Assembly (NCBI GenBank): GCA_913061235.1
Contig: CAJXTB010000030.1
Coordinates: forward strand, 1-64,000
Reading direction: 5' to 3'
DNA: 64,000 nt
From: an uncultured Pseudomonadota bacterium
GTDB lineage: Bacteria; Myxococcota_A; UBA796; GCA-2862545
Position numbers and translations under genes: made by a program. Positions 23,628-35,112 of the stretch are shown piece by piece. Under the pieces are notes generated by a model that was given only the letters and a program-made list of their open reading frames with translations, was not told where the DNA came from and searched no databases. Within the stretch, counting starts at the first letter, position 1, and every line of letters starts with the position of its first letter.

Positions 23628-24865
23628 GTCTGCGCGGCCGAATCACCCTCGCTATTGTTGCTCTAGCGGTTCTGGCACTGGTTGTTGGTGGCGGGCTGAC
23701 CCAGCGCCTTGTGGTGCGGCCCCTTGCTGACAACGCCCGGGCTGCGTTCGCGGCCCAAGCGCACTTTGTCGGCCTGCGCCTGGAGCGAGGCGAGTCTGCT
23801 GACGAGCTGGAAGCAACCTTTGACGTAGACATTCGGACAGTTGAGGCTCCGCCCGCTGGGGCGCGGGACATTGCAGCATCGGATTCCCGTCGGGGCAGAC
23901 GTCGTGGGCGAGTGGTTGCGGCGCCTCGAGGACCGGAGCTGTTCGTGCGGACGCGCTCGGGTTGGATTGGCGTCAAGCCGGAGCTGGACCTCGACCGTCC
24001 TGGGCAGCGATTGCTGCAGGTGATGCTGTTTGGTGGTGTGGTCTTGATCAGCTTGGCCTTCGCCATTGCCTCCGCATCCACCCGGCCCATCGAGCGTATG
24101 CGTCGGGCCATGGAGACGGTGTCGCGCGGTGACCTCGACCACAGACTGCCAGAGTCAGGGAGCACGGAAGTGGTGTCGGTGGGCGTAGCCTTCAACGCCA
24201 TGACCGCTCGGGTGCAAGCGCTCCTCACAAGCGAGAAGGAGCTGCTGGCTGGGGTCTCTCACGAGCTACGAACGCCCCTCACTCGGCTACGCCTCGCCGT
24301 TGAGTTGCTCCGTGATTATGAGGTCCCGGACCGCCATCTCAACGGTATGGAAGGGGACTTGGCGGAGCTCGATGCCCTCATTGAGGAGCTTGTCGAGGTG
24401 TCACGCCTTCAGCTTGGCCAGTCGCCGCTTCAGCCATCGACCGTCGACTTGCTGACCTTGGCCCAGGAGATTGCCGCACCGCACGAGCGCGTCCATGTTC
24501 ACGGAGACTCGGTGATACGCACCGTGGACGAGCGACTCGTGCGCCGTGCTGTAGATAACGTCGTGCGGAACGCGCTGAGCTACGCTCCAGAGGGAACTGT
24601 GGACATTACCGTAGGCCCAGACGGCTTCACGATTGAGGACCGCGGACCCGGTGTACCACCCGCTGCGCTAAGCCGTTTGTTCGAGCCTTTTTACCGAGTA
24701 GACAGCAGTCGAAGCCGGGCTTCCGGCGGCACGGGTGTTGGCTTGCGCATTGTTCAGCAGGTGTGTGAGCTTCACGGGGGCACAGCAACAGCGAGCCTGC
24801 GTGCTGGGGGCGGACTTACAATTTGTCTGCGTCTACAGAGCGTACCGGCGGGTGGGCCTCGATGA
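23624..24865 (+). CDS. Sensor histidine kinase (HAMP, HisKA, HATPase)
   Basis: Inner-membrane kinase of 413 residues, partner of the preceding regulator. TM1 spans about 7-28, a periplasmic loop of about 100 residues follows, and TM2 lies around 133-152. A HAMP domain ends in GVAFNAMTARVQAL, the phospho-acceptor is H213 in VSHELRTPLTRL, and the ATP-binding domain shows the N-box RAVDNVVRNAL, G1 EDRGPGVP and G2 GGTGVGLRIV. The periplasmic loop has a basic patch (SRRGRRRGR). It starts with GTG overlapping the regulator stop. Its last 50 bases overlap tail-to-tail with the LOG-family gene. Confidence 0.92.
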   Translation: MSLRGRITLAIVALAVLALVVGGGLTQRLVVRPLADNARAAFAAQAHFVGLRLERGESADELEATFDVDIRTVEAPPAGARDIAASDSRRGRRRGRVVAAPRGPELFVRTRSGWIGVKPELDLDRPGQRLLQVMLFGGVVLISLAFAIASASTRPIERMRRAMETVSRGDLDHRLPESGSTEVVSVGVAFNAMTARVQALLTSEKELLAGVSHELRTPLTRLRLAVELLRDYEVPDRHLNGMEGDLAELDALIEELVEVSRLQLGQSPLQPSTVDLLTLAQEIAAPHERVHVHGDSVIRTVDERLVRRAVDNVVRNALSYAPEGTVDITVGPDGFTIEDRGPGVPPAALSRLFEPFYRVDSSRSRASGGTGVGLRIVQQVCELHGGTATASLRAGGGLTICLRLQSVPAGGPR

Positions 24866-26033
24866 AGGCCATGGCTTCCTCTGGAGTGTCCACAACACCA
24901 ACACTCTGCAGGTAGCGTCGCGTTCCGCCGAGCTTCTCAAGCAGTGGAATGACCGGCAAGGTCTCCGTCCAGAAGGTCCGTCCCAAGAACACCATGGGAC
25001 TGTATTCGCCAAGGGTCTCGTAGTGATTCTGGGTGGTGTCCTGGAAGACTTCTTGCACGGTCCCAGCACTTCCTGGTGTGTAGATGATGCCGTGCCGTGC
25101 GATTGTCACCAGGCCATCTTCTCGCACCGCATTGGCGAAATACTTGGCGATGTGAGTCGCGAATGGCGTGGCCGGCTCGTGCCCATACAGCCACGTGGGA
25201 ACGGCCAAGCTGACCTGACGCTCGCTGGTGGTACCAATCCTGCGTCGAACGCGCATGGCCGTCGAGAGCCAGCCGGCATCGTTGTACATTGGCTCTGCAG
25301 CGAGCTCGGCCAGGCAGTCGTCCAAGAAGGCGTCGTCGTAGTCGACCAACAGAGCGCCTAAGTGAGTTGCTTCCATTGCACCCGGGCCGCCGCCGCTGAC
25401 CGGTAGGTAGCCTTGCTTTGCGAGGCTGCGTCCAATCTGAACGACCTTGCGAAAGCCTGGGTCCGCTCTTGACAGAGCATGTCCGCCCATGACTGCGACA
25501 GCACGTGTCTCCGACGTGACCAGGTCGGCAATCGCATCACCCATCGCCAGGTCATGCAGGCGTCGCATCAGGCTCTCCACCAAGTTGGGGAGCTCCCGTC
25601 CGGTCTGTTTCCAGTGCCTGTAGATGCGGCTGTCTAGAGTCTTGCCGAACGTCTCAGGGCGCTCGATATCAAAGCCCGCATACAGCTCATCTGCGGTGTA
25701 CAGCTGGGCGCGGTAGGCGTTGTACGGTCGTTCATCAACGGAGGGAAAGACCGCCGCGCCTCGCGAGACAAGGTCAGCAGCACAGGCTGGAGGTGCGTCA
25801 CAGCCTAGAAAGACTGCGCCACTCACATCGCGGGTCTTCAGGACGTCGAGAACGTCGGTCAGCTCGACGCCCTGCACAATGGCGTCGCTCAGAGCGTGCC
25901 CAGACACGAGGTGTGCGATGAGCTGTTCTTCGGTGTGAATCTGGATGCGTTGGTTGGCCACGGTCGGCTCCGGGAATGGCGTGAGGTATACAACACCCGG
26001 AGCGTTCATGCCGACGACCTTGCTGACCTTCAT
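24816..26033 (-). CDS. LOG-family protein (nucleotide 5'-monophosphate glycosidase-like)
   Basis: Protein of about 405 residues from ATG 26033; ATG 26009 is an alternative. The C-terminal half has a Rossmann-type LOG domain with VMGGHAL, SGGGPGAMEATHLGA and YTPGSAGTVQEVFQD. The last replaces the usual PGGxGTxxE by PGSAGTVQE, so the first PGG glycine is a serine while the Thr and Glu remain. Family members cleave nucleoside monophosphates at the ribose-base bond (cytokinin-activating enzymes, PpnN). The length is nearer PpnN-type large members than to short LOG proteins. It is divergent from the coiled-coil gene at 26008, and its start codon region overlaps that gene. Confidence 0.75.
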   Translation of the reverse strand: MKVSKVVGMNAPGVVYLTPFPEPTVANQRIQIHTEEQLIAHLVSGHALSDAIVQGVELTDVLDVLKTRDVSGAVFLGCDAPPACAADLVSRGAAVFPSVDERPYNAYRAQLYTADELYAGFDIERPETFGKTLDSRIYRHWKQTGRELPNLVESLMRRLHDLAMGDAIADLVTSETRAVAVMGGHALSRADPGFRKVVQIGRSLAKQGYLPVSGGGPGAMEATHLGALLVDYDDAFLDDCLAELAAEPMYNDAGWLSTAMRVRRRIGTTSERQVSLAVPTWLYGHEPATPFATHIAKYFANAVREDGLVTIARHGIIYTPGSAGTVQEVFQDTTQNHYETLGEYSPMVFLGRTFWTETLPVIPLLEKLGGTRRYLQSVGVVDTPEEAMAFIEAHPPVRSVDADKL

Positions 26034-26451
26034 CTTCGTTGTGATCACCTGCCTATGTGCCCTAGGAACGGGCATGGCATTGGGGTGGTTTCTGCGTGGG
26101 CGAGAGGCTTTTCGCAAGAATCAGAGCTTGCATGCCCAGGCCTCGCACCATCTCGACACTGCCGACGCAGAGCGGGACAACGCCGTTGGCGAAGTCGAAG
26201 AAATCACCAAAGACATGCGTGAATTGGCTACTCAGTACCGTGAATTGCACGACGACTACGAGAAGTTGGGGGTAACCCACAAGTCAACCTTGCTTCAGCT
26301 CAGTGGCGTGGAAGACGAGCTTCGCGTGCAGCAAGAGAGCGCACGAATGGCGAGGGTCGAGGCTGGGGCAAACCGGCGCAAGATTGGCAATTTGGAAGGC
26401 GAGCTTCGCGCTTTACAGGTTGCAGTCGCCAAAGCGGCGAATCGCGAATGA
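26008..26451 (+). CDS. Single-pass membrane protein with long coiled coil
   Basis: Protein of 147 residues: one N-terminal transmembrane helix (about 4-27, LLTFIFVVITCLCALGTGMALGWF) followed by RGREAF and then about 110 charged, heptad-like residues predicted to be a coiled coil facing the cytoplasm. No family recognised; the layout recalls small LapA- or ZapG-like membrane-anchored coiled-coil proteins. GGAG lies five bases before the ATG at 26008, supporting this start. Its stop overlaps the ATG of the 1244-residue ATPase gene as ATGA, so it is the first gene of the operon leading to the MscS channel. Confidence 0.7.
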   Translation: MPTTLLTFIFVVITCLCALGTGMALGWFLRGREAFRKNQSLHAQASHHLDTADAERDNAVGEVEEITKDMRELATQYRELHDDYEKLGVTHKSTLLQLSGVEDELRVQQESARMARVEAGANRRKIGNLEGELRALQVAVAKAANRE

Positions 26452-29400
26452 CTGTCCGCATGGATTCACACATGGTGCGAGTGGCTCGTTGGTTCTTGTG
26501 CGGCTGGCTGGCAGTCTGCTCGATTGCGTATGCAGCTCCTCCTGTCTGGAGCGGTTTGCCCACGGAGCCCGCCGCGGCATGGGCGATGTGGGAGCAAGAG
26601 CGAGCCCCGCAACTGCGCGCACGGCTTGAGACAGCGTCCCAGCGCGTACAAGGAGCAGAACAGTACTTTGCCGCAGATATTCCTCTAAGCAGCGCCTTCC
26701 CGCACTTGGCAGATGCTCGACTTGATGACCCGCTGGTGCTGTCTGCACGCCTGGTGGCTCTGGATGATGCCATGGTTGCCGCGGAGGCAGACCGAACAAC
26801 GACCAGTCCTGACTTTGGTGGAATGGACCGCGCAGCTCAGGCCACCGAGCTGGTGGAAACCGTCCTGTCCCTAGAGTCGACTGCCGCGGCAAGTGAGCGT
26901 CGTCTGTTGCTTTCGCTGCGGGCACGATTGGCTCGGTTTCCTGGAGAAACCTACGAGAGGACCCAGGCTCACCTAGCGGATATCGATGCCTCCCTGAGTC
27001 AGGCACGGCGTGCATTGTCAGCCGATACAGAGGATGTGCAAGCAGCACGCGCGGTAGCAGCGCTCGACGTTGAGCGGGCTGCGGCCATGGCGCTGTTTGC
27101 AGACCTACGTCGACTGGCGACCGTGTCCGGGTTCGAGGTCTCAGAACCTCTTTTCGACCTCGCAACCTTGAACAGCGAAGGCAGAGAGGCCCAACGGCGT
27201 GCTGATCAACGGCTTGACTTGTTGCGCGGGCACGTCACCGGTGGCCTCGCTGACCGCATTGATGCGGCGCGTCTGCAGTGGCGCTCGAACGTCGAGCTCC
27301 CAAGGGTTCGCAATGACCTAGAACTTAAGCTGTCCGCTGAGGCACCACCGCCACCACAGAGCGATACCGACGCTCTCGCCGCTCAACTTGCAGAGCTGGA
27401 AGAACGCATCGCGCAGCCGGTCCCAGCTGCGGACGGGTCGCTCTCACCGGCTGCAGCCGCCGTCCAGCTACAGATCGACGAGGTCGAGGCGCAGATCGTC
27501 GATGTAGAACGGTCACAGTTGGCGAGCGCAATTGGCAGCCTACAAGACCGTCTTGAACGGGCGAGCTCCCAGGCTCAGGATGCACGAGACTCAAGTGACG
27601 CAGCACGAGAAGAGGCGCTGCAGGCAGCGAGTGAGAGCCAAGCGTCTCTGCTTCGTCACGTGGCCCAGGCCAACGACCGGGAAGCGCGCAGCCTGGACCG
27701 GCTGTCTAACCTAGAACAGGTGGCAGAACGCCGGCAGGTGGGCCGAGTTGCGCGTGGACAAGAGGTCAAATCCAAGATCGACGAGTCCCTCGAAGAAGCG
27801 CGCTCACTTCTGTACACATCCGATGTCGGGCCCGATGATGCGTATGCTGCCGCTCGCATTGAAATACGGACATTGCGCAGGGAAGCCCTACGGTTGTTGA
27901 GCCTTCACGCTACAGCGGAGCGCGAGACAGAAGCGACTCTTGAAGCCGTGGAGTCAGACCGCCGGGTCATGGCGGAGCTGTCCCGTGCTCCCATGGTCGG
28001 ACAAGATATTGCGGCGCGCGACGCGGCCATGTCACGCTGGAGAACGGCCCTCAAGGGAGAGGTGGAGGCGTCAGAGGCTGCGGAGGTCGCTGTTGTTGCG
28101 GACCAAGCCTCCGCGCTGGTGGCTCTGCGTAGCATTAAGGAAGGCAAGCGCTCGATCAAGAGCTTGGTGTCACCTGAACAGCGTCGGATTGACTGGGAGA
28201 AGCTGAGTTTGGACCTGCGCTGGGAGCAGGCGCTTGTGTGGCCTACGTTCTTGGCAATGATCAACGACCAGTTCTTGGCCGTCATTGAAGCCCCGCTCAA
28301 CCTGTTCAACCCCGTCTACATGTCTGCGTTCATGCGCAGCGGTTTCTGGCTGTTCGTGTTTTTGTTGGGCTGGTGGTTCATCCGCGCGCGTTCGGGCCCC
28401 ATTGGGGTCTGGCTCATTAGTCGGGTTGCGGAGAGGCGAGAGGGCCGCGGTGGCTTGTTCACGCTGCAGCCTGAGGTGAGACGGACTGTCCGCGCTGTGT
28501 TGGACTTGGCCATTGGTTGGTTGCTGCGTGAGCCGCTGGTCGGATTCCTTCCGATTCTTGGGTTCGCGGTGTGGGTGTACCTGCAGGTTGCCCTGTACCG
28601 GCTCGCTGTGGCGCTGTTCGACTTGTTTGTCGAGCCGTATGGGGCAGTGCGGCCTTCCGTTCTTACCCTTGGTATAAAGGCCCATAGTCTTGCTCGACAC
28701 TCCCTTCGTTGGCTCGCGATGTGGCTCATCACCCGCGACTTCGTCCGTCAGATTCTTCAAGGAGTGCTCGACGCAGACGGCCTGGACATCATCGCGCGTT
28801 GGGGTATTGATGCTGTTGGTTTTGCGGGTGTCTTGTTCTTATTGCACCGCTGGGCACCTGTTCTCCGTGGGGAGATTCAGAGCTTTCATCAGGAGTCGCG
28901 CTGGGTCCGGTTTCTGTCGAAACCACCTCGCTTTTCCCTGCTGAATGCGCCGTGGGCCGTCGTCACTGGCGGGTACCTTAGCTTGGCCTGGATGTGGGAC
29001 CGCACACAAGAGCTCGCCAGGGAGCGCGAGGGCTTCGGACGACTGCTCGCGGCAGTGACGCGGTACCGTCTGCCCACCGAAGAAGACCATCCCGAGTCGG
29101 TCCTACCGCCACCGGCGCCAGTTCTTGCGGCCTTAAACGACCATTCACGGCACTACAGTGAGTGGGTCGAACGCAACGAAGACGCTGTGTTGCGCCGGGC
29201 ATTCGCTTCGTGGGGGTCTGACCACTCGTCGGGTGTGATGCTGTTTACAGGTGATCCAGGCGAGGGGAAAGACGCCTATCTTCGCAGGATTGTTCCGACT
29301 CTTCCTGGAAATATCCCAGTTCTGTACACCAAAGTAGAGCAGCGCCTCAACAACGAGGTCGATGCTGTTGACTGGCTCGCCGGCGTCATGGGCGGGAATG

Positions 29401-30182
29401 CACCGACACACAGCACCGAGGCATTTGTTGAGTGGTTGGAGCTGCAAGAACCTCGCATTTTGGTCGTTAGCGACCTGCAAGGTGCCTTCTTGCGAACTGT
29501 TGGCGGATTTCAAGGGCTTCGCGCCCTGCTGTACCTCCTAAATGCCGGGTCAAACCGCCACTTTGTGGTGGGCACGTGTCACCGCAAGGCGTTTCAATAC
29601 CTCAAACGACTGGGGTCATTGGTCAACATTGAAGTGGTCCGCGAAGTGGTGTCCTTGGCACCGTACGGCGAGAAAGACATGCAGGCGTTGGTGACGGGCA
29701 TGCTGACGCCACTTGGGTACGACCTTCGGTTTGGGACCCTGGTTCGCAACAGCCCATTTGGTGTCGACCCAGCCATTGAGCTTCGCCGTGCCGTTGGTCG
29801 CTTCTATTTGTTGTTGGCAGACGCCAGCGATGGGAACCCAGGTGTTGCCTTGCGTCTACTCACCCAGTGCCTGAGTCAGTCGTCCGACCCCATGTCCCTC
29901 GACGTCCGCATTGCTCCATGCCTGGGCGCTGGAACCCTGGACACCTTGTCAGACGACGAGATGTTCATGCTTGTCGCCTTGCGTATGCAAGGCGGCCTGA
30001 ACGAGCCGGAGCTGGTGCGTGTCACCAATATGAGTGCCAACGTGGTGCGAAACGTTGTTCGGAACCTCTTAAACCGTAAGCTCCTGTGCAAGAAAGGGTC
30101 CACAGTGGTCGTTGCGCTCGAACAACTGCCCGTAGTGACGAGAACCCTGCGTCGCCGCCATTTCCTCCACTTTGTGAACTAG
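26448..30182 (+). CDS. Large membrane protein: periplasmic coiled coil, TM segments, P-loop ATPase, winged helix
   Basis: Protein of 1244 residues. A signal peptide (ending near AYAA, residue 30) leads into about 530 residues rich in Ala, Glu, Arg and Gln, largely coiled coil. At least three hydrophobic segments follow (about 629-647, 697-722, 790-806; another near 838-850). From about 885 comes a cytoplasmic P-loop domain: Walker A GDPGEGKD (935-942), Walker B RILVVSD (about 1003-1009), and a C-terminal winged-helix-like region (about 1168-1220, SDDEMFMLVALRMQGG), a layout like STAND/AAA ATPases. Asp replaces the usual Ser/Thr after the P-loop Lys. The N-terminal half resembles MscK in plan, and an MscS channel gene follows three bases later. 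Function not known; channel control is my inference. Confidence 0.75.
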   Translation: MTVRMDSHMVRVARWFLCGWLAVCSIAYAAPPVWSGLPTEPAAAWAMWEQERAPQLRARLETASQRVQGAEQYFAADIPLSSAFPHLADARLDDPLVLSARLVALDDAMVAAEADRTTTSPDFGGMDRAAQATELVETVLSLESTAAASERRLLLSLRARLARFPGETYERTQAHLADIDASLSQARRALSADTEDVQAARAVAALDVERAAAMALFADLRRLATVSGFEVSEPLFDLATLNSEGREAQRRADQRLDLLRGHVTGGLADRIDAARLQWRSNVELPRVRNDLELKLSAEAPPPPQSDTDALAAQLAELEERIAQPVPAADGSLSPAAAAVQLQIDEVEAQIVDVERSQLASAIGSLQDRLERASSQAQDARDSSDAAREEALQAASESQASLLRHVAQANDREARSLDRLSNLEQVAERRQVGRVARGQEVKSKIDESLEEARSLLYTSDVGPDDAYAAARIEIRTLRREALRLLSLHATAERETEATLEAVESDRRVMAELSRAPMVGQDIAARDAAMSRWRTALKGEVEASEAAEVAVVADQASALVALRSIKEGKRSIKSLVSPEQRRIDWEKLSLDLRWEQALVWPTFLAMINDQFLAVIEAPLNLFNPVYMSAFMRSGFWLFVFLLGWWFIRARSGPIGVWLISRVAERREGRGGLFTLQPEVRRTVRAVLDLAIGWLLREPLVGFLPILGFAVWVYLQVALYRLAVALFDLFVEPYGAVRPSVLTLGIKAHSLARHSLRWLAMWLITRDFVRQILQGVLDADGLDIIARWGIDAVGFAGVLFLLHRWAPVLRGEIQSFHQESRWVRFLSKPPRFSLLNAPWAVVTGGYLSLAWMWDRTQELAREREGFGRLLAAVTRYRLPTEEDHPESVLPPPAPVLAALNDHSRHYSEWVERNEDAVLRRAFASWGSDHSSGVMLFTGDPGEGKDAYLRRIVPTLPGNIPVLYTKVEQRLNNEVDAVDWLAGVMGGNAPTHSTEAFVEWLELQEPRILVVSDLQGAFLRTVGGFQGLRALLYLLNAGSNRHFVVGTCHRKAFQYLKRLGSLVNIEVVREVVSLAPYGEKDMQALVTGMLTPLGYDLRFGTLVRNSPFGVDPAIELRRAVGRFYLLLADASDGNPGVALRLLTQCLSQSSDPMSLDVRIAPCLGAGTLDTLSDDEMFMLVALRMQGGLNEPELVRVTNMSANVVRNVVRNLLNRKLLCKKGSTVVVALEQLPVVTRTLRRRHFLHFVN

Positions 30183-30185
30183 GCC

Positions 30186-31031
30186 ATGAACGAAGACATC
30201 GACGTACAGCAGATCATTCAGTTCATTCGGTGGGACCAAGTTCCCACGGCGTTTTTTGTGGTGTTGGTTGGCTGGATGGGCTTCGTGGTCTTGGGTCGAA
30301 CCCTCGACAACCTTGGCGAGCGCTTCACCGACCGCCGGCTGGTGCTGAAGAAGAGCAAGGCGCTGCTGCGTTTCGTACTGTACGCAGCGCTGGCAATTTT
30401 GGTGGCCACCAGCCTTCTCGACATTCCAACTCAGGCCATGTTCGCCCTCGCAGGAACTATCGGCCTGGCGTTGGGCTTCGCCTTCAAGGACTTGTTGGCA
30501 TCGCTCATGGCCGGCGTCATCCTGCTCTTTGATGAGCCGTTTCAGGTCGGTGACCGGATCAGTTTTGGCGGCAACTATGGCGAGGTCACCGAGATTGGCC
30601 TGCGGTCTGTTCGGCTGGTCACCCTGGACGACAACCTCGTCACCATCCCCAACAGTCAGTTCTTGACCGACTCGGTAGCGAGTGCCAATGCTGGTGCACT
30701 CGACTGCATGGTTGTCGTTCCGTTCTTCATTGGTGCGGCCGAGAAGTTCTCAGTCGCTCGACGAATCGTAGCGGAAGCGGCGGCGACCAGCCGGTATGTG
30801 TACCTGCAAAAGCCAATCGTTACGCTAGTAAGCGACGAGTTCATGGGCGAACGGTTCGTCACGGTCATTCGCTTAAAGGCCTATGTGTTTGACGCGCGGT
30901 ACGAAAAGGCATTTGCGTCTGACGTGACCGAGCGGGTCAAGCGAGCTCTAGCAGACGCCGACATTCACACACCAGACCGTCAATACCGCGACCTCGAGTT
31001 GAACCGGCGCGAGACCCCACCGGAAGTCTAG
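30186..31031 (+). CDS. MscS-family mechanosensitive channel
   Basis: Small-conductance mechanosensitive channel subunit of 281 residues. Three hydrophobic helices lie in the first 115 residues; the pore helix region is GTIGLALGFAFKDLLASLMAGVILL, followed by the beta domain signature FQVGDRISFGG...GEVTEIGLRSVRLVTLDDNLVTIPN. The C-terminal alpha/beta vestibule domain is complete. It lacks the long periplasmic part of MscK-type channels, but the gene directly upstream encodes just such a coiled-coil domain. The three-base spacing to that gene implies one operon. Normal role: release of solutes on hypo-osmotic shock. Confidence 0.93.
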   Translation: MNEDIDVQQIIQFIRWDQVPTAFFVVLVGWMGFVVLGRTLDNLGERFTDRRLVLKKSKALLRFVLYAALAILVATSLLDIPTQAMFALAGTIGLALGFAFKDLLASLMAGVILLFDEPFQVGDRISFGGNYGEVTEIGLRSVRLVTLDDNLVTIPNSQFLTDSVASANAGALDCMVVVPFFIGAAEKFSVARRIVAEAAATSRYVYLQKPIVTLVSDEFMGERFVTVIRLKAYVFDARYEKAFASDVTERVKRALADADIHTPDRQYRDLELNRRETPPEV

Positions 31032-32514: not shown

Positions 32515-33354
32515 ATGCGCTCGCTCGCGATTCTGCCCCTGCTCTTGTTGTCTGGATGTCCAAAAGGCTCTCTGCCTGTTGATATCAGCAAGTTCTCCCC
32601 AAAGATTCAGTTCGAGAACTTTGAGCTCGACGGTATCAACTTTCAACAGGCGGACACGCAGTTCGTCTTCAACATCGACAACCCGAACCCCGTCGGACTG
32701 TCCGTAGCGTCATTTACCTATGACCTAGACCTGGCTGGAAATGGGTTCATCGAAGGCGACAATTCAGATGGCCTTGCACTGCCAGCTGCAGGAAGCACTC
32801 AGTTTAAGCTGCCGGTCAGTGTTGTCTTCGCGGACGTCTTCGCCCTGGTTCAAAACCTGGATGTGAAGAGCGAAGTTCCGTTCACCATCCAAGGCGAGTT
32901 TGGCTTCCAGACACCTCTGGGCATTCTGCGCATTCCATACCAGGAAGAGGGCAACTTGCCGGTTCTTCAGGCGCCCAAGGTCAGCGTGAAGGGCGTTCGC
33001 GTTGACACCTTCCAGCCGCTTCGCAATCGCGCGACCCTCGCTGTGGACATCGGCGTTACCAGCGCTGGTGGAAGCGCGCTTTCATTGGCTGGCTTTGACT
33101 ACGACCTGACCCTTGGTGGCGAGTCTGTCGCGGCTGGCTTGCTAGAGCAGTTTGCCGAGGTCTCTGGCGACGCTGAACAAGTGGTCACGTTGCCAATCGA
33201 GCTCAACCTCCTGGGCATGGGCAGCTCCATTGTCAGCGCCATCAGCAACCGTGGTCCCATTGACGTTGGCTTGACCGGTGGATTGACCGTTGGCACACCA
33301 TTCGGCCCGTTGCCTCTGAACATCGACGAACAGGCAAACCTCAACCTGCGATAG
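32515..33354 (+). CDS. LEA type 2 family lipoprotein
   Basis: Lipoprotein of 279 residues with lipobox LLSGC (Cys15). Two LEA-2/WHy-like domains follow: the first around 30-125 (VFNIDNPNPVGLSVASFTYDL), the second around 150-270 (LAVDIGVTSAGGSALSLAGFDYDL). In such domains an NPNP-type turn followed by a beta-rich strand is typical. Members are linked with desiccation or envelope stress, but the bacterial function is poorly known. GGAG lies six bases before the ATG. The gene is divergent from fprA and converges on the deacetylase-like gene with three bases between. Confidence 0.85.
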   Translation: MRSLAILPLLLLSGCPKGSLPVDISKFSPKIQFENFELDGINFQQADTQFVFNIDNPNPVGLSVASFTYDLDLAGNGFIEGDNSDGLALPAAGSTQFKLPVSVVFADVFALVQNLDVKSEVPFTIQGEFGFQTPLGILRIPYQEEGNLPVLQAPKVSVKGVRVDTFQPLRNRATLAVDIGVTSAGGSALSLAGFDYDLTLGGESVAAGLLEQFAEVSGDAEQVVTLPIELNLLGMGSSIVSAISNRGPIDVGLTGGLTVGTPFGPLPLNIDEQANLNLR

Positions 33355-33357
33355 AGT

Positions 33358-35112
33358 CTACGCAGGAAGCAAGGCTCCTTTTAGGCGTGCGCGAACTGCG
33401 CGCGCCTCTTTTGCGTGGTTCGCAAGGGCATCACGAGCAGCTCCCGTCAGCGGCCACACCATCGGGCCTGGGTCCCATTTCAGCACTTCATCCCATTCGG
33501 TGGGGATTCCTTGGCCATCCAAGCGCTCGCTGACTCGGTGCAGAGGCTGGCGAATAGTGCCGTCAAGCACGGCACGAAAGCGGCCTTCTCGTGTGGGGTC
33601 GAGAAAGAAGAACTGGTCACGTACCATCCATGCCACATGGAAGTGCGACGGTACCAGCGACACAGCGTCGAGACTAGCTCGCTCTGCCAGCGCGCGAATA
33701 AGGACGAGCGCTTGCTCACCTAGGCCAAGTCCAGGAGCGTCTTGGCCTGGCAAGCGCGGTTTGTTGGTAGCGAACGGCACCCGCGGGTCGCGAAGCGTGA
33801 GCCACTCGATGAACAGGGTGTCTAGGTCATCAATGCGGCGCTCGCGTGCCGACAGCTCGAACAGGACCTGCTGCTCTCCGCCAACCATCGCTGAGATACG
33901 CAACAAGTGCGGCGGGGCCTGCGCGTCGACATGCACGCTTAGTCCTTGAAATCCCATGCGCTGCAACGTGTCAAGCAACCCGTAGCGCGTCAGCGCATAG
34001 GCCACTCCTTGCTCGGTATACAGGCCGAGAAACCGATGCTCTTGGGTGGGCATCCCCAAGGCCTCGGCAACATCTGCGCCGGTAAGCCAAGCGTCGCTTG
34101 TGCCGAGTTCACCTGGGTCTAAGGTACGCATGATGCGACGGGTTCGGTGCATCAAAGGGTCAAATGACGCTGCTGGAGATTCTCTCTCGCCGGCAAACGT
34201 CGCGACTGCAGTCGCGAATACCCGCCAAGCCCCTGGCGTGTACCCGCCGGCAGGAAAGAGCACGGTGGGGCGGTCTCCGATGGCCGCAAACAGTCTCCTG
34301 TCGCGCTCAGCCAGACCTTTGGGGGTCGTTGCCAGGCCGCCGTAGCGGTCACCGCCGAGGGGGTCGGCACCGGCAAGGACAATGACCACATCAGGCTTGC
34401 CAAGGTCTTTGATGGCCGCGTCTACCGCCTTTAGGTAGGCGACGTCATCGCCACCACTGGGCACTCGGTGGTCGAACACCCAGTCAGGGGTCTCCCAGCT
34501 CGACTGGACGCCAACACTGATGAGGCGAATGCCATCTCGCTCGGGGTCTAGGCAGGCAGCAATGCCATCTGGCGGATGTGCGTCAACGTCCACAATAGCG
34601 ACCTTGCCCGTGTACCCGCGTAGTCGCAGCACTCGAACGGCCACTGCCACGTCATTGATTCCACAGAACCCTGTGCCCGCTGCTGGGTGGGCATGGTGAA
34701 AGCCTCCGGCCAACACAGCTGCACACCCGCGGGTCTGCACAGCCCAGGCTAGTGCATCCGTTGCAGCACCGGTTGAGCGTCTCCACATCTCAATGATGGA
34801 CGCTGTTGAGAACAGGGCGGGCTCTAGCCCCAGGATCCGTGCCATCACCTGTGGGTCGTCCAGCTGTGCCACGTAGTCGCTGTCGTGCACGCGCAGCAGG
34901 TCTTCCCAGGACGCTTCGCGCGCAGACTCCACATCGTCGGCGTTGACTAAGCGACGTGCGAGCAGCCATGTCAGCACATGGTCGGCTCGGCTCGGCTCAA
35001 TACCAAGACGCTGTTCGGCGCTTGCAATGGGAATCTGAAAGGCAGAGTGGTGCCACACACGCAGCGAGCGTCTACGGCGCCGGATCAGGCTACGAATGCG
35101 GGACAGAGCCAC
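33358..35112 (-). CDS. Histone-deacetylase-like hydrolase with C-terminal extension
   Basis: Protein of 584 residues. Residues about 20-330 form an HDAC/AcuC-like arginase-fold domain: GGFHHAHPAAGTGFCGINDVA holds the charge-relay histidines, DVDAHPPDG the first metal-binding Asp and His, and AGADPLGGDRYGG the second metal Asp. The usual HxGDG/HHGDG segment reads HPPDG here, so two prolines replace the His-Gly part while the metal ligands remain. The last 250 residues match no family I recognise. GTG start, four bases after the ppk stop, so it is co-transcribed with polyphosphate kinase. The substrate is unknown; deacetylation of small acylated amines or proteins is typical. Confidence 0.82.
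   Translation of the reverse strand: MALSRIRSLIRRRRRSLRVWHHSAFQIPIASAEQRLGIEPSRADHVLTWLLARRLVNADDVESAREASWEDLLRVHDSDYVAQLDDPQVMARILGLEPALFSTASIIEMWRRSTGAATDALAWAVQTRGCAAVLAGGFHHAHPAAGTGFCGINDVAVAVRVLRLRGYTGKVAIVDVDAHPPDGIAACLDPERDGIRLISVGVQSSWETPDWVFDHRVPSGGDDVAYLKAVDAAIKDLGKPDVVIVLAGADPLGGDRYGGLATTPKGLAERDRRLFAAIGDRPTVLFPAGGYTPGAWRVFATAVATFAGERESPAASFDPLMHRTRRIMRTLDPGELGTSDAWLTGADVAEALGMPTQEHRFLGLYTEQGVAYALTRYGLLDTLQRMGFQGLSVHVDAQAPPHLLRISAMVGGEQQVLFELSARERRIDDLDTLFIEWLTLRDPRVPFATNKPRLPGQDAPGLGLGEQALVLIRALAERASLDAVSLVPSHFHVAWMVRDQFFFLDPTREGRFRAVLDGTIRQPLHRVSERLDGQGIPTEWDEVLKWDPGPMVWPLTGAARDALANHAKEARAVRARLKGALLPA

Follow-up and report, generated by a model that had tools for sequence, protein, structure and literature searches.

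A conserved two-gene unit pairs an MscS channel of a distinct subfamily with a membrane-bound AAA+/winged-helix protein

Results

Organization of the locus

The window, the whole stretch of 64,000 nucleotides analysed here, comes from an uncultured bacterium of the Myxococcota_A lineage. The original prediction had recognized in it three consecutive open reading frames, a small coiled-coil gene, a gene for a 1244-residue protein and an MscS gene. All three are present on the plus strand at the predicted coordinates, the first overlapping the second through an ATGA at 26448 and the third starting 3 nt past the TAG of the second. The features of the locus are as follows:

26008..26451, plus strand: small coiled-coil ORF, 147 residues, single-pass membrane protein (ORF and codon score); outside the conserved unit
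26448..30182, plus strand: MscS-partner protein, 1244 residues (ORF), with signal peptide, periplasmic helical stalk, transmembrane bundle, AAA+ domain and winged helix
26472..26531, plus strand: signal-peptide-like segment, residues 9-28, MVRVARWFLCGWLAVCSIAYA (hydropathy and sequence)
26535..28157, plus strand: periplasmic helical/coiled-coil region, approximately residues 30-570 (sequence)
28158..29060, plus strand: membrane bundle, residues 571-871, about five TM helices (AlphaFold2, pLDDT 93.3; loop charges)
29100..29942, plus strand: AAA+ domain, ORC/Cdc6-like, residues 885-1165 (AlphaFold2 model; 7jgr_G, Z 14.9)
29250..29273, plus strand: Walker A, GDPGEGKD, residues 935-942 (alignment)
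29454..29474, plus strand: Walker B region, ILVVSDL, residues 1003-1009, the first acidic residue being Ser here (alignment)
29943..30167, plus strand: winged helix and conserved C-terminal tail RTLRRRHFLH, residues 1166-1240 (model; alignment)
30186..31031, plus strand: MscS channel of a distinct subfamily, 281 residues (PF00924, E 8e-20)

The three genes had been read as a single operon. This holds for the large protein and MscS, which form a conserved pair; the three-gene version was rejected because no homologue of the coiled-coil gene was found beside the loci of the relatives. The coiled-coil ORF is probably a real gene, although not a conserved one: its frame has a codon score of +23.9, every other frame scores negative, and its codon use is typical of the window. 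The conserved system therefore consists of two genes, encoding the 1244-residue partner and the MscS channel.

The partner is a membrane-anchored AAA+/winged-helix protein

Searches of Pfam, NCBIfam and the PDB sequences with the 1244-residue protein returned no match, and together with the profile comparison with MscK and MscM (see Discussion) they place it in no described channel family, in line with the original prediction, which could not match the complex to a described system. Against PADLOC the large protein gave noise only (best E 0.054) and MscS gave nothing. Of the features that had been predicted, a signal-peptide-like start and the long periplasmic helical stretch were recovered in the sequence, and the winged helix in the AlphaFold2 model of residues 560-1244, which was computed with 64 relatives and reached a pLDDT of 90.6. 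Residues 571-871 folded alone reached 93.3. These residues form the membrane bundle, for which at least three TM segments had been proposed; the bundle is there, and the loop charges correct the number to about five, an arrangement that puts the N-terminal stalk on the outer side and the AAA+ domain on the inner side of the membrane. Comparison of the bundle with the PDB produced no useful match (best Foldseek E 1.4; Z 7.8), and MscK was not among the hits. The periplasmic region varies in length among the relatives, and the whole Vibrio version has only ~785 residues.

Residues 885-1240 were modelled as an AAA+ domain plus a winged helix. The best fold matches of this cytosolic part were ORC/Cdc6 AAA+ proteins (Foldseek E 1e-7), and the AAA+ domain aligned with 7jgr_G with a Z of 14.9 and an rmsd of 3.5 Å over 247 residues. 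Note that relatives from Vibrio, Paraferrimonas and Enhygromyxa pass the gathering cut-off of AAA_22, the window protein itself being without a Pfam match. Two Walker A glycines, W802, a GNP motif and the C-terminal tail are conserved in the partner family.

The channel belongs to a distinct MscS subfamily

As proposed, the third ORF encodes a plain MscS channel, scoring 71.2 bits against PF00924 (cut-off 20.2). It is 25% identical to E. coli MscS over 151 residues (E 3e-15), with TM3 and the beta-domain aligned, and 22% identical to the MscK core. Profile scores over 67 genomes were bimodal: members of the subfamily scored at least 337 bits and the other MscS proteins of the class 101 bits at most, the sole intermediate being a 153-bit fragment in genome G006. 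Mean column identity was 61% for MscS versus 31% for the partner, and the pore and beta-domain of MscS are strongly conserved.

The two genes are linked within the class

Relatives of the partner are carried by 30 of 58 near genomes, by 39 of 71 in the class and, paralogues counted, by 86 of 237 in the phylum. Among the 26 class loci that reach past the 3' end of the partner gene, 25 have MscS directly behind it, with gaps of -4 to +24 nt. In the exception (L026) a PhoX phosphatase gene and a smaller ORF separate the two. An apparent absence of MscS in G006 (L011:1-514, on contig G006:C81) was rejected, since the start of an MscS gene lies behind the partner before the contig turns into ABC oligopeptide permease-like sequence; this contig is probably a chimeric join. 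With G006 added, MscS directly follows the partner in 26 of 27 testable class loci. Moreover, the MscS subfamily and the partner are present or absent together across the 67 genomes. In one large family of the order (f2; e.g. G021, G026 and G035) all sampled genomes are without both, and the sister families mostly have both.

The pair is found in several phyla

We then scanned the public genomes, one per species. Two other alignments (A1 and A3) had diverged too far to be back-translated for this purpose, so the MscS alignment alone was used as the query, which also made the test independent. The 80 best loci represent the top matches to the window MscS subfamily rather than MscS genes drawn at random. 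All 80 encode the partner, and in 78 it lies directly upstream if one locus (L111), with its partner gene broken across two frames, is counted as adjacent. The remaining two are L084, which lies on the same contig as L026 and has its partner 3.5 kb away, and a Bacteroidetes genome in which the partner is downstream. Thus, the idea that orthologues of the large protein are followed by an MscS gene was confirmed both in the class (26/27) and across phyla (78 of the best 80), frequencies far above chance, for which a rough expectation is well under 1% per genome.

The organisms carrying the pair include Myxococcota, Bdellovibrionota, Acidobacteriota, Vibrio, Aliivibrio fischeri (with two copies), Paraferrimonas, Croceicoccus, Novosphingobium and Solimonas; of 81 genomes from the family of A. 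fischeri, 29 have it. The converse search, with the partner only in 237 genomes, found MscS within 1.5 kb in 29 of the 30 best loci. Pairwise distances of partner and MscS were correlated over 75 loci (r = 0.90; none of 1000 permutations was as high), to which shared ancestry contributes. When the neighbouring ORFs were clustered, only the partner and MscS recurred in all 89 loci. Altogether, MscS with an adjacent partner carrying an ATP-binding-like module occurs at well over a hundred loci in at least five phyla. No relative was present among 50,697 phage records, and only 3 of 72,556 plasmids, all non-mobilizable, carried one.

The AAA+/winged-helix module also occurs with other N-termini

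A profile of the C-terminal part also detected the AAA+/winged-helix module behind a Na+/H+-exchanger domain or a soluble coiled coil. An MscS gene lies downstream in 25 of the 26 loci with these N-termini, usually at once and in one case (L204) 2 kb further on. The own genome of the window has a paralogue of this kind outside the window (L200:3405-8893, G000:C37:4904-10392), whose N-terminus carries a PF00999 domain (E 5.3e-20) and whose next gene downstream encodes a divergent MscS domain; many genomes of the phylum have units of this sort. In support of this, Pfam detected the MscS beta-domain in four of the downstream genes of the exchanger/soluble type, independently of our custom profile. 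The MscS genes of the exchanger type are very divergent and their pore helices are degraded.

A tree built from the AAA+/winged-helix part has two well-supported sister groups, one for the window type and one for the exchanger/soluble type, the soluble forms nesting inside the latter. The Bacteroidetes row, at first assigned to the window type since MscS had led to it, groups with the exchanger/soluble type. Since MscS pairing occurs in both groups, it has outlived the exchange of the N-terminal domain, and no other single observation speaks so strongly for a joint action of the AAA+ module and MscS itself.

The Walker motifs are degraded in many copies

The P-loop ATPase of the original prediction stood as far as the fold is concerned, which is AAA+, and both Walker motifs are degraded in the window copy. 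Its Walker A keeps the Lys, followed by Asp in place of Ser/Thr, and the first Asp of Walker B is replaced by Ser, so that neither the GxxGxGK[ST] pattern nor the catalytic acid of Walker B expected of an active ATPase is present. Across 72 aligned members G938 and G940 are invariant; the Walker A Lys is present in 51 and missing in 21; Walker B reads DD in 26 and DN in 22, and its Glu is rare. The Enhygromyxa relative is an example of a copy that retains GxGK[ST]. All aligned Vibrionaceae copies have lost the Lys (rows L128, L133, L137 and, from A. fischeri, L135 and L136 among them), their Walker A reading mostly GERGxGT, and the gene pair is still intact in them. Nucleotide binding may thus be dispensable in these copies.

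With the Lys lost in 21 of 72 members and a Glu seldom present in Walker B, hydrolysis of ATP cannot be a property common to the whole family. Regulation by ATP, one of the two modes originally proposed, is therefore a putative one, and the window copy itself looks weakened. Judged from these motifs, the partner AAA+ resembles a switch that binds nucleotide more than it does a strong ATPase, and in some lineages the module may be silent. STAND-like traits were also seen, namely the DD/DN Walker B, the GNP motif and the winged helix; the nSTAND5 match was weak, and tandem repeats were not seen.

Discussion

MscS channels have mostly been described as gated by tension alone, with a few ligand-tuned exceptions. 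The architecture, co-occurrence, linkage and co-evolution of the pair are observed, and from them we infer, with a probability of roughly 60%, that the partner is a nucleotide-switch protein that binds MscS and tunes its gating within one membrane complex; the contact, the direction of control and the dependence on nucleotide are all part of this proposal. MscS would form the pore, and the partner would stand beside it, with its helical stalk in the periplasm, its helix bundle in the membrane and its ORC/Cdc6-like AAA+/winged-helix module resting on the channel from the cytosol. How much tension is needed to open MscS would then depend on the nucleotide state of the AAA+ domain, together with what the stalk senses in the periplasm or cell wall. 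Where the Walker motifs are degraded (in all the aligned Vibrionaceae and probably in the window copy), the module may be a nucleotide-sensing or purely structural switch, not a motor. Since paralogues have an exchanger domain or a soluble coiled coil in place of the stalk and bundle, it seems to be the AAA+ module that is dedicated to MscS, and the N-terminus seems to be an interchangeable sensor or transporter. More tentatively, and with a little less than even odds, these proteins would make up a widespread class of AAA+/winged-helix switches dedicated to MscS gating, with the stalk and bundle, a Na+/H+ antiporter or a soluble coiled coil as exchangeable inputs, so that mechanosensitive channel complexes would be under nucleotide control.

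The chief alternative, particularly where the exchanger type is concerned, is control in the reverse direction: MscS would be the tension gauge, and the AAA+ module, switched by deformation of the channel, would drive the antiporter, the stalk and bundle or, through the winged helix, DNA. A Na+/H+ exchanger is a plausible output of turgor control, the MscS of the exchanger type is very divergent with degraded pore helices, and the winged helix is conserved, all of which suit this reading. In the window type, however, the pore and beta-domain are strongly conserved (61% versus 31%), as expected of a working channel, and we consider the reversed direction to be rather unlikely overall. Linkage and co-evolution can also stem from a shared task without contact, in which case the partner would have a target of its own under osmotic stress, the cell wall or some other membrane process, and would merely be expressed together with MscS. 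That one genome tolerates the genes apart agrees with this; however, the tight coupling over phyla without a third conserved gene, the co-evolution and the re-pairing after N-terminal exchange fit a physical unit better, which makes a purely shared pathway improbable.

MscS domains serve as effectors in some conflict systems, and this, together with the GNP motif, the DD-type Walker B of many members and the weak nSTAND matches, would fit an anti-phage or abortive-infection system in which a STAND-like NTPase senses infection and opens MscS as an effector pore. The PADLOC result for the large protein, the lack of relatives in the phage records, their near absence from plasmids, the long vertical co-evolution and the ordinary neighbours all speak against it, and a defence role is unlikely, the least probable of the alternatives weighed here. 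Scarcely more probable is a split MscK/MscM, in which the partner would be the N-terminal half of an MscK-type channel, now on a gene of its own and with an ATPase gained. The order of parts is the same, some 500 helical periplasmic residues followed by TM helices and the MscS core (PMC9653487), and the weak profile alignments are colinear; but the two hhalign probabilities from the comparison with the MscK and MscM profiles are only 21% and 10%, with no significant similarity outside the MscS core, the partner has no Pfam match to MscS_TM (PF12794) or MscS_porin, and no MscS_TM match was found in its own genome.

MscK itself combines some 500 residues in the periplasm, 11 TM helices and the MscS core in one chain and responds to external K+ as a co-signal with tension (PMC9653487). 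Both MscK and MscM (YjeP) of E. coli thus add a helical domain in the periplasm and further TM helices to an MscS core, but in one polypeptide without an ATPase, whereas in the window system the stalk and bundle are on a separate AAA+/winged-helix protein; partner and channel are on separate genes in all loci. On present evidence the proposed switch would work somewhat like MscK with an added input, yet it is not a member of the MscK family. E. coli MscS shares the channel core, TM3 and the beta-domain, but no such partner lies beside its gene, and the window subfamily is clearly apart from other MscS proteins by bit score.

In bCNG channels, MscS and a cyclic-nucleotide domain are joined in one polypeptide. 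These likewise combine an MscS pore with a ligand-sensing cytosolic module, in place of which the window system has a separate AAA+ protein. With ORC/Cdc6 AAA+ proteins and STAND NTPases the partner shares the AAA+ fold, the trailing winged helix and the GxP-like GNP motif; in contrast to them, it is anchored in the membrane and tied to a channel gene, and it has mostly lost the Walker B Glu and often the Walker A Lys. The N-terminus of the paralogue is the same domain as in Kef/CPA2 Na+/H+ exchangers (PF00999), but in the paralogue it is fused to a coiled coil and the AAA+/winged-helix module, with an MscS gene behind. Among open-licence papers we found no description of a pair of MscS and an AAA+ partner, and its novelty is provisional to that extent; such separately encoded control of mechanosensitive channels, as proposed here, would be widespread and is apparently undescribed. 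If the proposed tuning of MscS is correct, the opening threshold of this safety valve could be set from the energy status or the state of the envelope, and the exchanger-fused paralogues would link tension sensing to ion exchange. As the pair is present in cultivable bacteria such as A. fischeri, this is directly testable.

Other genes of the window

On the minus strand, 24816-26117 is a SLOG/lysine-decarboxylase-like gene with weak matches to PF18306 and PF03641. The best ATG inside this gene (26009) shares bases with the start codon at 26008 of the coiled-coil ORF, which runs on the opposite strand; this leaves no room for separate promoters, so one of the two starts probably lies elsewhere. 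A bacterial LEA_2 (late embryogenesis abundant) lipoprotein-like gene with two LEA_2 stretches is found at 32515-33354 (plus strand), and 33358-35112 (minus strand) is a histone-deacetylase-like gene (PF00850, E 6.5e-36) whose C-terminal half carries no assigned domain.
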